Shown: positions 973-14,846 of the stretch, piece by piece | How the letters are laid out: each line of letters starts with the position of its first letter | Position numbering within the stretch: the stretch's first letter is position 1 | NCBI GenBank assembly: GCA_039680175.1 | Contig: JBDKTO010000013.1 | Span: 1 to 57,225, forward strand | From: Veillonellales bacterium | Lineage (GTDB): Bacteria; Bacillota; Negativicutes; JAAYSF01 | DNA length: 57,225 nucleotides | Direction of reading: 5' to 3' | The notes under the pieces: model-generated | The model's database searches: none | What the model was told of the DNA's origin: nothing | The model's input: only the letters and a program-made list of their open reading frames with translations | Translations under genes and position numbers: made by a program

Positions 973-1716
973 TTGCATTTATATATTCAACTGGAAAGTC
1001 CAAGCGGGTTAGAAGTACCGGTTCATTACAATCATATCGTACAGGCGGTTCTTTATCAGACAATTGATGCCGATTTGGCAAAATTTCTTCATGACAGCGG
1101 CTTTGTCAGTCAGGGAAGAACCTTTAAACTGTTTTGCTTTTCCCGGCTTAGGGGCAGCTTTGCTAAAAATGGGGCGGCGAACAATCTCATTTTTCGGGAT
1201 AAAATTCAACTGGTGATTACATCACCGGTCGAAGAATTTTGTCAGTCCCTTGCCAACGGCTTACTGAAAAAGGGAACTCTTTTATTTGGCCGGCAGCCGG
1301 TGGAAGTGAAAGAAATTCAAGTGGAGCAGCCCCGGGCAGAAGACGAAGTAACCCAGCTCCGGACGCTGTCGCCCATTGTTGCTTACAGCACACTGCTGCG
1401 GCCCGACGGCAGAAAGTATACCTGCTATTTCCAACCGGGGGACCCTGACTACAACTCCCTGATTACAGGCAACCTGCGGAAAAAGTTCCAGGCCTGCTAC
1501 GGCCGCGAAGCACCGGCAGGCGAGGTCAGAGTGGACAAGCGGGGCGAATTGCGGCAGAATATTATCCGCTACAAAGAAACGATTATCAAAGGCTATTCCG
1601 GCCGGATTCGGCTGACCGGTCCGAAAGAGCTTCTGCAAATGGCCCTGGACGCAGGCCTTGGCAGCAAAAACAGCCAGGGATTTGGCTGCGTGGAAATGGA
1701 AAAGCCACGCCGCTAG
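973..1716 (+). CDS. cas6: CRISPR-associated endoribonuclease Cas6
   Basis: A 247-residue Cas6, the RNase that cuts the precursor CRISPR RNA within each repeat and in type I-B leaves an 8-nt 5' handle. Seen directly: the N-terminal ferredoxin-like start (LYIQLESPSGLEVPVHYNHI, with two His near residues 18-21), an FCFSRL strand, and the C-terminal glycine-rich loop GLGSKNSQGFGCVE that defines the RAMP/Cas6 family. The start is a TTG at 973, with a GGATGGGG stretch before it; no ATG gives the full N-terminus. It stands apart from the other cas genes: a 190-bp gap with a divergent RNA gene separates it from cas8b, so it probably has its own promoter. Its stop codon sits in the loop of a hairpin used as a terminator by the opposite strand. 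Confidence 0.93.
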   Translation: MHLYIQLESPSGLEVPVHYNHIVQAVLYQTIDADLAKFLHDSGFVSQGRTFKLFCFSRLRGSFAKNGAANNLIFRDKIQLVITSPVEEFCQSLANGLLKKGTLLFGRQPVEVKEIQVEQPRAEDEVTQLRTLSPIVAYSTLLRPDGRKYTCYFQPGDPDYNSLITGNLRKKFQACYGREAPAGEVRVDKRGELRQNIIRYKETIIKGYSGRIRLTGPKELLQMALDAGLGSKNSQGFGCVEMEKPRR

Positions 1717-1723
1717 GGCGTGG
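1698..1723 (-). terminator. Hairpin ending the crRNA-like RNA
   Basis: On the minus strand, CCACGCC (1723-1717), loop CTAGC, GGCGTGG (1711-1705), then CTTTTCC. A 7-bp GC-rich perfect stem with a short U run. It overlaps the 3' end of cas6 on the other strand, with the cas6 stop codon in its loop. Confidence 0.6.
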
Positions 1724-1729
1724 GGTGAG

Positions 1730-1759
1730 GGAAAGATTCCTTGTAGGTAGGCTAATAAA
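1730..1759 (-). repeat. Degenerate CRISPR repeat 2 (downstream of pseudo-spacer)
   Basis: Reading the minus strand from 1759 to 1730, 20 of 30 bases match the array repeat. The kept core is ATTAGCCTACCTA and AGGAAT; the last bases CTTTCC have lost the GAAAC end. The conserved 5' and middle part is what would remain as the 3' tag of a crRNA-like molecule after Cas6 cutting, if this copy is cut at all. Confidence 0.75.
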
Positions 1760-1776
1760 TCAATAGTAAAATACTA

Positions 1777-1806
1777 ATTTCAATTCCTAGTAGGTATATA
1801 AATTTT
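1777..1806 (-). repeat. Degenerate CRISPR repeat 1 (upstream of pseudo-spacer)
   Basis: Reading the minus strand from 1806 to 1777, the last 20 bases TACCTACTAGGAATTGAAAT match the last 20 bases of the array repeat at 17 positions. The first 10 bases have diverged into A/T sequence that overlaps the predicted transcription start. The 3' end that would form the crRNA 5' handle is the best kept part. Confidence 0.8.
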
Positions 1807-1835
1807 ATTATACATTATATTGAGTTTTGTTTCAA
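1807..1835 (-). promoter_or_regulatory. Sigma-A promoter of the crRNA-like RNA
   Basis: On the minus strand, -35 TTGAAA (1835-1830), 17-bp spacer, -10 TATAAT (1812-1807). Five of six and six of six consensus bases with ideal spacing. The predicted start, near 1800-1799, falls inside degenerate repeat 1. It is back to back with the cas8b promoter. Confidence 0.75.
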
Positions 1836-1850
1836 TTTATATAAAATATG

Positions 1851-1879
1851 TTGAATAATTCAATTTAAAATACTATAAT
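1851..1879 (+). promoter_or_regulatory. Sigma-A promoter of the cas8b-cas7-cas5-cas3 operon
   Basis: -35 TTGAAT (1851-1856), 17-bp spacer, -10 TATAAT (1874-1879), with transcription expected to start near 1886. The spacer/-10 border contains TAAAATACTA (1866-1875), an exact copy of pseudo-spacer sequence at 1767-1776. Seen from the minus strand, TTA lies at the PAM position next to it. Confidence 0.8.
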
Positions 1880-1905: not shown

Positions 1906-3948
1906 ATGCTTGCAGAGTCAGTAATAAGAATAGGAAGGCCTATTATGCAAAGTGACTTATCTTTGGAAGAGCGTATTAGACTTTTAACCGATGTCTCCAG
2001 TATTAGTTGTAAAAATTATTTTCAGAATGTAATTGTAGCTGAATTAGGAAAAGATACTGATACTGTCCATTATCTTACCATCGGAATGTTTGATGGAGAT
2101 CAGAAAAGCTTTCAAGTTGATGCAAGAAGAAATGTCTCTTTTCCTATCACCTTTCCTAATGGCGGGAATCCGTTGGTTCCTCAGGGCGTTTATGCATTAC
2201 CTTGCTATTTAATGTGGGAGCCACATTTAAAAAAAATGATGAATGCCGAAGCTTTTGCACAGGAGATATTATTACCTAGGCTAAACAGTACAATTGGATA
2301 TCGAGAATTAATGCAGGAGGAACGTGAAAAGCTTGCGTTACGAATATCTAATTTATTAGCCGAAAATACGCAGCGCTTTTTGCGAGAAGAAAAACAATTG
2401 GGAATACTTCTGGTGTTTGATTCTCGTTTAGCGGTTTATAAAATAAAAGAGCAGCTTGCAAGCGAGCCGTCTGATTTATGGATTGCAGATAGTCTGTGTA
2501 TTTCGGACAGTGCATTATATTTAGATGGCGAAGAATTTTTAAATCAATTTATTACAGCAAAAATGGATGAAGCTGCTAGCTTAGGTAAAGCCCAAAATGC
2601 AGTTTCAACATTTTCTAATCAGGTCAGTACAGAAGTGGTTTCTATTTATAATAAATCCTGGTTATGGTTATCTCCCACATGGGAAATGCCTTGTTCAAAT
2701 GATTGGGGTAAAACAGATTGGATTAAAGGAATTAAAGTCGATGCTGAAAATTATGCGGCTTTTTTGTATGGTAGTCAATTTCTAAAAGAAATTCAAGTCC
2801 CTCTTTCGAATAGTCTTTTGAAAGAGATGTTTGCGCCCATTATGAGCGTAGAAGCAAAAAAACATATGAAGACGACTAGTTTTCAGCCGATATATGGGAT
2901 ACCGCTTGTTGTCCCTTTGTTGGACGGGGACTCAAAACAAAATTTTAAAAAGTATCGCCATATGTTAAAGAATCAACAGCATTTAAGTCAAACCGATTTA
3001 CATATGGAAGTTTTAGCAGGGATGAAAGGAAGCATTATTCCTCAATTCAGCGATGAACATCGACTTACTATTTTATATTATTCAGGCGATTTATCAAGGG
3101 GAGACATGCACATTCGAGCAATAATTGAGGATATTGTACCCAGTATAGCGAGTAAAATTCAATCCATTTTATGGAAAATTAAAAATTATGAATGTGGCAG
3201 TATTCAAGATGAGTTTGGTGTACAACGACAACCGTTATATAAAACAGAAACACTACCGTCTCTATTAGCTAATGCTTTTGGTCCGGGGTACGTCTGGAAT
3301 GTTTTGCAAAAAGTTTTTCATAGGCAATCATTAGAAATGAAGCACTTGTTTCAGGCAACCGAAAAAAAATTAAATGAATTGGTAAATAAAGAAGATTATT
3401 GGGGGATGAAACAAGAGCTGATTTTCTTTTATGTGTTTATGCTTTTTTACAAGCTATATAATGAACAAATTAGAAATGTAAAAGGAGGTGTCAAAGATTT
3501 GGCAGATTGGAAAAAGATTATTGAACAATACTATTCTGGAGAATTAAAGGACGAGGACTTTAATTCATTGGAAAATTTGGGCTTTATAAGTGGTATGCTA
3601 TTAAAACAATTTTCTCATTCCTATTACATGAAAACAAATAAGGATTTTGTTAAACAGCGTGTAATGAAATTTGGCAGTAAGTTAACTCCCGTCATGATTT
3701 GGCAACAAGGTGTACTTAGATGTCAGGAATTGGCCGATCAATGGGACTTGAAACTTGGAGTCAATTTTTGGGGCGTTTTGCCGCTGGTGTTATTAGGATT
3801 TTTATCGGCCAATGAAAAGAAAACTTTAGTATCTGAGAAAAATGTATTTATGACCGCTTTTTGGTCGGGATATTTACTTTACCGTAAACCGAAAAATGAT
3901 AATGATTCAGATGGTACAGAGGAGAGTATAAAAGGAGGTAGTAACTAG
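1906..3948 (+). CDS. cas8b: Type I-B Cascade large subunit Cas8b (Csh1-like)
   Basis: A 680-residue protein in the place of the Cascade large subunit, which recognises the PAM and recruits Cas3. I recognise it by position before cas7-cas5-cas3, by size, and by the general look of Csh1/TM1802-type Cas8b proteins; these are very divergent and I see no short diagnostic motif. The start is taken as ATG 1906 because AGGAGGTGA lies just before it (1894-1902); an ATG at 1885 is in frame but lies at the predicted transcription start. Coding is A/T-rich compared with cas4-cas1-cas2. It ends in an overlap with the GTG of cas7. It is the first gene of the operon predicted to be repressed by the crRNA-like RNA. 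Confidence 0.85.
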   Translation: MLAESVIRIGRPIMQSDLSLEERIRLLTDVSSISCKNYFQNVIVAELGKDTDTVHYLTIGMFDGDQKSFQVDARRNVSFPITFPNGGNPLVPQGVYALPCYLMWEPHLKKMMNAEAFAQEILLPRLNSTIGYRELMQEEREKLALRISNLLAENTQRFLREEKQLGILLVFDSRLAVYKIKEQLASEPSDLWIADSLCISDSALYLDGEEFLNQFITAKMDEAASLGKAQNAVSTFSNQVSTEVVSIYNKSWLWLSPTWEMPCSNDWGKTDWIKGIKVDAENYAAFLYGSQFLKEIQVPLSNSLLKEMFAPIMSVEAKKHMKTTSFQPIYGIPLVVPLLDGDSKQNFKKYRHMLKNQQHLSQTDLHMEVLAGMKGSIIPQFSDEHRLTILYYSGDLSRGDMHIRAIIEDIVPSIASKIQSILWKIKNYECGSIQDEFGVQRQPLYKTETLPSLLANAFGPGYVWNVLQKVFHRQSLEMKHLFQATEKKLNELVNKEDYWGMKQELIFFYVFMLFYKLYNEQIRNVKGGVKDLADWKKIIEQYYSGELKDEDFNSLENLGFISGMLLKQFSHSYYMKTNKDFVKQRVMKFGSKLTPVMIWQQGVLRCQELADQWDLKLGVNFWGVLPLVLLGFLSANEKKTLVSEKNVFMTAFWSGYLLYRKPKNDNDSDGTEESIKGGSN

Positions 3949-10359: not shown

Positions 10360-13300
10360 GTTTTTAGCTTACCTAAGAGGAATTGAAACGCCAGTTCTAA
10401 TAGCCAGGACGGAGATAAGTATCGAGTTTTTAGCTTACCTAAGAGGAATTGAAACAAGCTGGATGACTCATCAATCACAACCATGTCAAACGTTTTTAGC
10501 TTACCTAAGAGGAATTGAAACACATTTTTCATCCGTCCTATAAACGCACCTGTGAGTGTTTTTAGCTTACCTAAGAGGAATTGAAACATCCGGGTTTATT
10601 CCCGGTTCAAGCCTTCAACCTTTGGTTTTTAGCTTACCTAAGAGGAATTGAAACCGACAACGGCTTCGGAAGCTGCAGTCAAAGTGGGAAAGTTTTTAGC
10701 TTACCTAAGAGGAATTGAAACACTATATATTCCGATCCACATAGAGTACAGATGTCGGTTTTTAGCTTACCTAAGAGGAATTGAAACTGACCACCTCAAA
10801 CTTCCCGTACCGCGGCCGATAGTCGTTTTTAGCTTACCTAAGAGGAATTGAAACTCAATAGTAATGCGTACCCATAACATACGTCCTTTTGTTTTTAGCT
10901 TACCTAAGAGGAATTGAAACCTGGTAATGGCTTTTTCCATAGCGGTAATGCCAAATATGTTTTTAGCTTACCTAAGAGGAATTGAAACAAATAGATGTTC
11001 CGTTTGCTGTTCGAGGTGCATAGGGTTTTTAGCTTACCTAAGAGGAATTGAAACACCCCGGAATGGTCATGGTTGCCGGTAATAAATTTCGGTTTTTAGC
11101 TTACCTAAGAGGAATTGAAACTGCGCTCCTGCACCTGATCGGCTGCTGATTGTACTGTGTTTTTAGCTTACCTAAGAGGAATTGAAACTTTTTTTCTGCT
11201 AATGTCAAGTATCCCATCCCCCTCGTTTTTAGCTTACCTAAGAGGAATTGAAACAATTTTCTTCCTCTATCCATTCAACAGGCGTTCCGCGTTTTTAGCT
11301 TACCTAAGAGGAATTGAAACTCAAACACCATGACCGGAGCGGCCTGCAAGCCTCTAGGTTTTTAGCTTACCTAAGAGGAATTGAAACATCTCCATTTGCT
11401 TGTATCGCCGCCATCGTGAACAAGTTTTTAGCTTACCTAAGAGGAATTGAAACTTGTGGCAACCTTGTATCCTGCATCCTGGTATGGTTTGTTTTTAGCT
11501 TACCTAAGAGGAATTGAAACAAAAATCTTCATGCGCTTTGTCTGCATAATCATCAAGTTTTTAGCTTACCTAAGAGGAATTGAAACCTTGCTGGTGATGG
11601 TATCAAGGCTGGTTGTGGTATCGGTTTTTAGCTTACCTAAGAGGAATTGAAACCCCGCAGCGGATGTATATTTATTTAAATATAGTCAATGTTTTTAGCT
11701 TACCTAAGAGGAATTGAAACCATAGACGGCAATTAACTCCTAGCCAGCTAGGCATGGTTTTTAGCTTACCTAAGAGGAATTGAAACCGAGCAAGGCAGAA
11801 GCATTGCCGAAAGATTTCAACCGGGTTTTTAGCTTACCTAAGAGGAATTGAAACCAAGGCCGAACGCAAGGAGAAAAAGAAAGGTTCCTTGGTTTTTAGC
11901 TTACCTAAGAGGAATTGAAACAAGAACAGTCAATTTGCAAACATTGCGGGCATGACAAGTTTTTAGCTTACCTAAGAGGAATTGAAACCAAAGCGATATT
12001 GAATAAATCTGATAATGTGCTTGAGTTTTTAGCTTACCTAAGAGGAATTGAAACACTGGAAAGACAACAAAGAATCCAATACAGGTTACCGTTTTTAGCT
12101 TACCTAAGAGGAATTGAAACTTGTGCAGTCCGGCAAAGGCTTCCGGTTTCTCTTTACGTTTTTAGCTTACCTAAGAGGAATTGAAACGGAGACGGCAAGC
12201 CCCGCTTCTTCATGTCTTTTTTTGGTTTTTAGCTTACCTAAGAGGAATTGAAACACCGACTCTGTCACTAGCTTGCTTGACCATTCCGGCGTTTTTAGCT
12301 TACCTAAGAGGAATTGAAACCTATCCACTGCCCTTGCATAGCTATACACATGATAACGTTTTTAGCTTACCTAAGAGGAATTGAAACTCCTCCATTCCAT
12401 CCAATGTATACTTAATGTTAATCGTTTTTAGCTTACCTAAGAGGAATTGAAACTGTATATTCTCTGAACACCACCAGGACAACCTTCGCCGTTTTTAGCT
12501 TACCTAAGAGGAATTGAAACATTTCGGATATAAGCTGGAAAGTGTCATACTGGAAAGTTTTTAGCTTACCTAAGAGGAATTGAAACTGACAAGTTTTAAA
12601 ACGTGTTCAAGCTTTTCAATGTACGTTTTTAGCTTACCTAAGAGGAATTGAAACTACCTTCAGCAACACCGGTACCGTATTTCTGAATGGTTTTTAGCTT
12701 ACCTAAGAGGAATTGAAACATTACAGCTTCCGATTTTTGGAACGGCGAAACGGAACGTTTTTAGCTTACCTAAGAGGAATTGAAACTTTTTCAAACCGCT
12801 TTTCGTCCGTACGCTAACACGGTTTTTAGCTTACCTAAGAGGAATTGAAACATTTCAATTTTTGCACCTCCTTTAATGTAATTTTAATGTTTTTAGCTTA
12901 CCTAAGAGGAATTGAAACGAGATATCTGTGCGATAAATCGATATTCCAAATGGGGTTTTTAGCTTACCTAAGAGGAATTGAAACCCTTTAGATTTTCAAT
13001 AGCCGCCTTGACTTTTGCAAGTTTTTAGCTTACCTAAGAGGAATTGAAACTAAAACGGCTGTTAGGTTCAGCATATGTCGTTGGTAAGTTTTTAGCTTAC
13101 CTAAGAGGAATTGAAACATGCAATACGCCGGATAACTTCCGGCTCCTATGGTCGGTTTTTAGCTTACCTAAGAGGAATTGAAACTCACTAGCAAGGGATG
13201 CAAGATATTCTTTGTCTTCGTTTTTAGCTTACCTAAGAGGAATTGAAACTTCAGTTTCTTGATTCCTTCCTTGGATACTCCCACAGTTTTTAGCTTACCT

Positions 13301-14846
13301 AAGAGGAATTGAAACGGATTCTATGTATGTCATCGGTTCTTCCCTAGAATCAGTTTTTAGCTTACCTAAGAGGAATTGAAACAAAAAAATATCGGTCTAG
13401 TCAGATATGATTCCGGTTGGGTTTTTAGCTTACCTAAGAGGAATTGAAACTTGGATTGTACTTTTCGCCGCCATTGGCAAAAAACTGTTTTTAGCTTACC
13501 TAAGAGGAATTGAAACTTTTTTGCTGTTCTTTTCTATCCATGTTCTTACCCCGTTTTTAGCTTACCTAAGAGGAATTGAAACCTCGCTGGTTGGGGTATC
13601 AAGGCTGGTGATGGTATCAAGTTTTTAGCTTACCTAAGAGGAATTGAAACTTCTGCAGAAGACATTGGGAATGAACTTGGGATATGCGTTTTTAGCTTAC
13701 CTAAGAGGAATTGAAACTACAAAATGAAAATCCAAAACAATAAAAATCGAATCGTTTTTAGCTTACCTAAGAGGAATTGAAACGTGGGTACGGAATCGGG
13801 GAGTATACGGGCGTTTTAGTTTTTAGCTTACCTAAGAGGAATTGAAACCAATATGGCCAAACACCGTAAAGCGCTTGCGATCCTAGTTTTTAGCTTACCT
13901 AAGAGGAATTGAAACATCGCATTCCGATGCCGCTGAACGACGCTCAATTTGTGTTTTTAGCTTACCTAAGAGGAATTGAAACGGTAAAACAGCAATGCAA
14001 TTAGAGTGGTCAAGACACAGTTTTTAGCTTACCTAAGAGGAATTGAAACATTCAATTCCAATACCCCTGCGTCCCATTTTTACCGCGTTTTTAGCTTACC
14101 TAAGAGGAATTGAAACTTTGCGGCATGAAACACAGCCTAACTTCTGAAAGAGTTTTTAGCTTACCTAAGAGGAATTGAAACGCCGCCGCAATGATGACAG
14201 CAAGGTTGCATGCACAAGTTTTTAGCTTACCTAAGAGGAATTGAAACTCAAGCAAGCTGGACATTGAAACGAACATTCCTCTGCGTTTTTAGCTTACCTA
14301 AGAGGAATTGAAACTATCTAGGTTCAACTTCATTCAAAAACTGGGACAAAGTTTTTAGCTTACCTAAGAGGAATTGAAACGCACACCAGAAATTGAATAC
14401 GCCGCTCTTGCTATGGTTTTTAGCTTACCTAAGAGGAATTGAAACATTTTCATTCCACTGTACTGCATCAGAATAGGCGGCGGTTTTTAGCTTACCTAAG
14501 AGGAATTGAAACAGCAATACTCGCAAGAGTCTGCAGAAGAAATAGCGGCGTTTTTAGCTTACCTAAGAGGAATTGAAACACCAACTTTCCATCTACAACC
14601 TTCAATGTCGTGACAGTTTTTAGCTTACCTAAGAGGAATTGAAACAAATACTCATCGGCGTCAACTTATGCACAAATTACCGGTTTTTAGCTTACCTAAG
14701 AGGAATTGAAACTTTTTATCAATCCTCCTGCTATCAGCTTTTTCTCATCGTTTTTAGCTTACCTAAGAGGAATTGAAACATTACTTGAATCCACCGCAAG
14801 AAATAATCATGCTTTGGTTTTTAGCTTACTTATGAGGATTTCTGAG
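10360..14846 (+). CRISPR. Type I-B CRISPR array, 67 intact repeats plus one degenerate repeat, 67 spacers
   Basis: The repeat is 30 bp: GTTTTTAGCTTACC, TAA, then GAGGAATTGAAAC. I counted 67 copies that I read as intact from 10360-10389 to 14750-14779. A final degenerate copy at 14817-14846 keeps the first half but ends TTATGAGGATTTCTGAGG. Spacers are about 34-39 bp, mostly 36-37. The ATTGAAAC end is the classical 8-nt crRNA handle. The array is transcribed in the plus direction, away from cas2. The repeat can form only a very small hairpin (CTTA/TAAG). Several false open reading frames run through the array on both strands because the repeat is open in them. Confidence 0.99.

Follow-up and report, generated by a model that had tools for sequence, protein, structure and literature searches.

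A predicted CreR-type guide RNA gene between cas6 and cas8b of a type I-B CRISPR-Cas locus in the Negativicutes

The gap between cas6 and cas8b of the type I-B CRISPR-Cas locus analysed here harbours a crRNA-like gene on the minus strand, the pseudo-spacer of which matches the promoter of cas8b itself next to a TTA PAM. An earlier note on this DNA had proposed a complete miniature crRNA-like gene at this place, a prediction from the sequence that remains the best reading; the target of the pseudo-spacer was missing from it. Given the features laid out below, we consider it very likely that the element encodes a guide of the CreR type, by which the system would repress its own cas8b operon via Cascade, and not a CreA antitoxin. 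The cas-regulating RNA CreR was reportedly described by Liu et al. in Cell Host Microbe in 2023.

Results

The window, i.e. the whole stretch of DNA that was analysed, is one entire contig of 57,225 bases from a 4.08-Mb genome of the class Negativicutes, which also includes Sporomusa. It contains a complete type I-B locus consisting of cas6, cas8b, cas7, cas5, cas3, cas4, cas1, cas2 and a CRISPR array (Table 1). Cas8b was recognised by PADLOC (PDLC01483, E = 1.8e-257) and by neither Pfam nor NCBIfam; Cas6b, Cas7b, Cas5b and Cas3b likewise have I-B scores, and the locus belongs to this subtype. Two spacers of the array (11587-11623, CTTGCTGGTGATGGTATCAAGGCTGG...; 13583-13620, CTCGCTGGTTGGGGTATCAAGGCTGG...) are alike and probably derive from a repetitive gene.

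Table 1 Features of the crRNA-like gene, its target and the host locus in the window
Feature	Position	Strand	Remarks
cas6b, processing nuclease	973..1716	+	not under the targeted promoter, which lies downstream
Hairpin CCACGCC-CTAGC-GGCGTGG, then CTTTTCC	1705..1723	-	7 bp, 6 of them G-C
Degenerate repeat 2 (psiR2)	1730..1759	-	20/30 against array repeat; first 22 nt 17/22, last 8 nt 3/8
Pseudo-spacer TAGTATTTTACTATTGA, 17 nt	1760..1776	-	
Degenerate repeat 1 (psiR1)	1777..1806	-	against array repeat: last 20 nt (1777-1796) 17/20, whole 19/30
-10 box TATAAT of crRNA-like gene	1807..1812	-	17-bp spacing from -35 box
-35 box TTGAAA of crRNA-like gene	1830..1835	-	together with -10 box, 11/12 consensus
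-35 box TTGAAT of cas8b promoter	1851..1856	+	
Target (protospacer) seed TAGTATTTTA	1866..1875	-	exact match to pseudo-spacer nt 1-10
-10 box TATAAT of cas8b promoter	1874..1879	+	N17 spacing; overlapped by target and PAM
Target PAM 5'-TTA-3'	1876..1878	-	inside cas8b -10 box
cas8b	1906..3948	+	ATG at 1906 after AGGAGGTG; conserved MLAES start; PADLOC
CRISPR array	10360..14790	+	67 repeats GTTTTTAGCTTACCTAAGAGGAATTGAAAC, spacers of 35-38 nt

Read along the minus strand, the gap contains a promoter, psiR1, the pseudo-spacer, psiR2, a hairpin and the sequence CTTTTCC in this order. Each part named by the earlier note was found where it had been placed: the promoter TTGAAA-N17-TATAAT, a first repeat matching the array repeat at 17 of its last 20 positions, a pseudo-spacer far shorter than the array spacers, a second degenerate repeat with 20 matches of 30, and a GC hairpin with U residues. 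The hairpin, which overlaps the cas6 stop codon, is a weak intrinsic terminator with a poor U tract. Transcription is expected to start near 1800, in the register of psiR1 and upstream of its conserved part. The last eight nucleotides of psiR1 (ATTGAAAT, 1777-1784) agree with the array handle at seven positions. An Rfam search yielded nothing above chance. On the minus strand at 1829-1858, the -35 box of the crRNA-like gene lies inside a 9/9 match to the 3' end of the repeat (AATTGAAAC; 19/30 for the whole repeat), a likeness that is perhaps due to chance.

Pattern searches of the 4.08-Mb genome, allowing up to three mismatches in 20 positions, returned psiR1 as the sole match besides the 67 array repeats, and psiR2 as the sole match once the array with its degenerate terminal repeat is set aside; the reversed pattern, used as a control, gave one match per genome. 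The starts of the two repeats are 47 bp apart. Because both are the only such sites away from the array and stand this close on one strand, the element is real and not a product of chance. In proven CreA genes, psiR1 provides an 8-nt 5' handle and psiR2 a 22-nt 3' handle (PMC8501985). Measured against this division, psiR1 of the window retains 7/8 of the handle and 12/22 of the rest, and psiR2 retains 17/22 of the 3'-handle part and 3/8 of its last eight nucleotides. The corresponding values in two other Negativicutes, Sporomusa acidovorans and genome G011, are 8/8 and 7/8 for the psiR1 handle, 13/22 in both for psiR2, and 3/8 and 4/8 for the unneeded end of psiR2. As in the proven CreA genes, the repeat parts that a mature RNA would need are kept, and the unneeded parts are lost. 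The conserved repeats and full-length spacers of an ordinary mini-array were not found here, with repeat matches of 19/30 and 20/30 and a spacer of 17 nt compared to 35-38 nt in the array.

What, then, would such a guide recognise? The pseudo-spacer begins with TAGTATTTTA and matches the target over 10 contiguous nucleotides, with a mismatch at position 11. TTA followed by TAGTANTTTA occurs once in the 4.08-Mb genome. Shuffling of the promoter region produces the bare seed with P = 0.0036, and the seed with TTA on the same strand as the guide with P = 3e-5. Downstream of the targeted promoter, cas8b follows directly, with no ORF and no room for one between target and cas8b; transcription from this promoter should begin approximately 20 nt before the start codon. 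In haloarchaea, guide nucleotides 1-5 and 7-11 suffice and all of them are needed (PMC8501985); set against this requirement, we regard the mismatch at position 11 as the main quantitative doubt about the guide of the window. Its pseudo-spacer is absent from close relatives, with only three other carriers of this Cas8b among 380 genomes of the class.

Array spacer 2 (10456-10491) agrees at 33/36 positions with a conserved helicase motif of Negativicutes genomes and has near matches in unrelated phages; it is the sole array spacer with prophage-like matches. In phage and class-genome searches its matches are flanked by TTA or TTG, and these flanks support, without proving, TTA as the system's own PAM. 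A viral scan gave zero exact matches to array spacers. The type I-B system of Parageobacillus thermoglucosidasius employs a TTA PAM, with guides of up to 26 nt leading to repression, significantly so even at 11 and 15 nt, and guides of 27 nt to cleavage (PMC10551041).

To look beyond the window, we scanned 47 fetched stretches (some of them overlapping, loci not preselected) in the neighbourhood of I-B Cas8b genes, both related and more distant ones, for a handle-like TGAAA plus ten bases recurring within 400 nt. Three distinct guide-like matches were obtained, namely the window, [Clostridium] ultunense DSM 10521 (L016) and the Negativicutes genome G028 (L132, also L114), each with a pseudo-spacer of its own (17, 21 and 26 nt, the last read by eye; all within the 26-nt repression limit) and with TTA on the guide's strand. 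For TTA plus seed, shuffling of the promoter sequence gives P = 7e-5 in L016 and likewise 7e-5 in L132. In L016 (psiR1 at 3382, psiR2 at 3331) an 11-nt seed was found, and the target adjoins TTGACA-N17-TATACT (hexamers read by eye). The stretch L016:3331-3575 with the crRNA-like gene and the targeted promoter ends in a strong ribosome-binding site that lacks an obvious start codon; cas8b of this locus lies 6.5 kb off, with transposase-like genes between. G028 carries a different Cas8b (PF09484) and again an 11-nt seed, with the target directly upstream of hexamers resembling a promoter, TTGACT/TACAAT (read by eye). There (L132:7650-7918), this promoter reads into a 41-aa ORF (MKVNKRREDIQIVVNIINNNGPTEKTNFFDLILRLWKMFAK) ahead of cas8b. 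The ORF is without a match in Pfam and might be the small toxin of a CreTA-like pair.

The earlier note had named loss of the repeats from related loci as evidence that would speak against the element; instead, other genera retain the repeat pair. In S. acidovorans (L009) and G011 (L005), psiR1, pseudo-spacer (psiS) and psiR2 form a nearly invariant block between diverged flanks, and the block is followed by a long hairpin, the pairing of which is preserved through changes in both arms. An ungapped TTA-flanked seed is not significant in S. acidovorans (P = 0.25) and moderate in G011 (P = 0.003); over its full length, with gaps, the guide is similar to a site nearby that is flanked by TTA. Judged by these comparisons, both loci appear to support the conservation of the element and not the target. 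S. acidovorans has another, perfect TTA-plus-seed site in an apparent coding region. The pseudo-spacer shared by the L009:9509 and L005:1259 regions contains a perfect inverted repeat (GAAATATAT-GTG-ATATATTTC), which would pair handle with guide; a minus-strand frame is open through psiR1 and psiS in both. The scan of the 47 stretches detected no seed-matched guide in the related-Cas8b loci of H. coagulans, Fervidibacillus, Paenibacillus, Brevibacillus and Desulfosporosinus. Four further loci of the class with a PF09484 Cas8b also lacked one. In Desulfosporosinus sp. Tol-M and Peptococcaceae UBA2264 (L010:8967, L017:8967), a lone degenerate repeat ending in GGAATTGAAAT stands upstream of cas6 and is followed by a run of AAAC units.

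In four loci, which represent three distinct pseudo-spacers, the alignment of pseudo-spacer and target continues past the seed: in the window with 10/10 and then 10/12 positions after a 1-nt gap, in S. acidovorans along all 33 nt with small gaps. These alignments suggest the idea, which we put forward tentatively and hold to be somewhat doubtful, that each pseudo-spacer was copied locally from the promoter region it targets instead of being captured elsewhere as a spacer. If true, promoter DNA duplicated locally into a pair of degenerate repeats would be a recurrent source of self-regulating guides. The recurrence of one layout with different guides and the same PAM suggests that such guides do arise repeatedly.

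Discussion

We propose that the minus-strand promoter gives rise to a short RNA, which Cas6 would cut in psiR1 and psiR2 to release an RNA of about 47 nt, with the 17-nt guide between a 5' handle of 8 nt and a 3' handle of 22 nt; these products are deduced from the repeat positions that are kept. Loaded onto the type I-B Cascade, the RNA could direct binding to the cas8b promoter via the TTA PAM and the 10-nt seed, and the complex sitting on the -10 box would block RNA polymerase and reduce expression of the operon that begins with cas8b (cas8b-cas7-cas5-cas3-cas4-cas1-cas2). By analogy with the published I-B system, the guide should be too short for Cas3 cutting, so that repression without cleavage is to be expected. 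As cas6 is located upstream of the targeted promoter, maturation of the guide need not be shut off. Repression might be lifted when array crRNAs are plentiful or when an anti-CRISPR ties up Cascade, as is known for CreR. Points against this autorepression are the mismatch at position 11, the weak terminator, the weak to moderate seed in S. acidovorans and G011, the absence of this pseudo-spacer from close relatives and a PAM that is backed by the matches of a single array spacer.

Could the element instead be a functionless relic, a mini-array decayed from an old CRISPR? Both repeats are degenerate and the terminator is weak, as would be expected of a remnant, but the promoter is near-perfect, seed and PAM lie at a cas promoter, the decay is selective for the psiR2 part unneeded in the RNA, and the layout is conserved across genera and recurs with different pseudo-spacers, so that we regard a relic as improbable. 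About as improbable in our view is a CreA-type antitoxin, in which the guide restrains a toxin gene and the cell becomes dependent on Cascade. The anatomy and the position between cas6 and cas8 are indeed those of haloarchaeal creTA (PMC9458426, PMC8501985), and the related guide of G028 targets the promoter region of the 41-aa ORF before cas8b; in the window, however, transcription should start about 20 nt before the cas8b ATG, too close for a toxin gene to fit in between, and TTA plus seed is found nowhere else in the genome. We thus decided against the antitoxin because a toxin gene is lacking.

The region is AT-rich and has two promoters facing away from each other, and the perfect inverted repeat of the S. 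acidovorans and G011 pseudo-spacer could be a protein-binding site, all of which would suit a mere DNA operator or divergent promoter with a coincidental likeness to the repeat. Two sites resembling the repeat, unique in the genome and only 47 bp from each other on the same strand, together with the seed match make such a coincidence highly improbable. Least probable of all appears a guide that mainly acts in trans on another gene, with cas8b as a side target: although TTATAGTATTTT is present at three further places in the genome, these matches comprise 9 nt of the seed and end at seed position 10, one of them falls within cas1, and no promoter was established at the three. The cas8b site alone has 10 nt of seed. 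Autorepression of the cas8b operon by a CreR-type guide hence remains our preferred explanation. The locus would then offer a readable natural case of a CRISPR effector acting as repressor of its own operon, in which seed, PAM, guide length and repeat decay jointly predict repression over cutting, each of them testable by a single mutation. The biology is already known from CreR; the present example is unusually clean and well marked, and we found no earlier description of such a guide in Negativicutes in the literature.

Comparison with known systems

The earlier note had likened the element to CreA. With the CreA of CreTA it does share the order psiR1-psiS-psiR2, the 8-nt and 22-nt handles, the position between cas6 and cas8 and a seed with PAM at a promoter (PMC8501985, PMC9458426). 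In contrast to CreA, the target is the cas8b promoter, an adjacent repressed creT toxin gene is missing, and guide and target gene are divergent instead of forming one operon. The comparison thus holds for anatomy and position and fails on the toxin gene and on the promoter, which reads into cas8b; CreR is closer. CrePA, a KilA-N toxin with a CreA guide, resembles the predicted system in that a guide RNA represses a promoter through Cascade (PMC12737573), and differs from the window by its toxin gene. The short crRNAs of Parageobacillus thermoglucosidasius have the TTA PAM and repression without cleavage at up to 26 nt in common with it (PMC10551041); the guides there are engineered, and the comparison covers PAM and guide length.

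Autorepression by CreR RNAs, based on partial complementarity to a promoter, is described for type I-B, I-E and V-A systems (PMC13131331, PMC12737573). Compared with CreR as described in these papers, the likeness comprises a gene for a crRNA-like RNA within a type I-B locus, complementarity of limited extent to the locus' own cas promoter and the lack of a toxin; particular to the window are the 17-nt pseudo-spacer, the 10-nt seed and the Negativicutes host. With a degenerate repeat pair at the cas locus, the 8-nt handle in psiR1 and the 22-nt part in psiR2, a seed with PAM in the cognate cas promoter and a targeted promoter without a toxin gene, the element possesses every feature of CreR that can be tested in a sequence.
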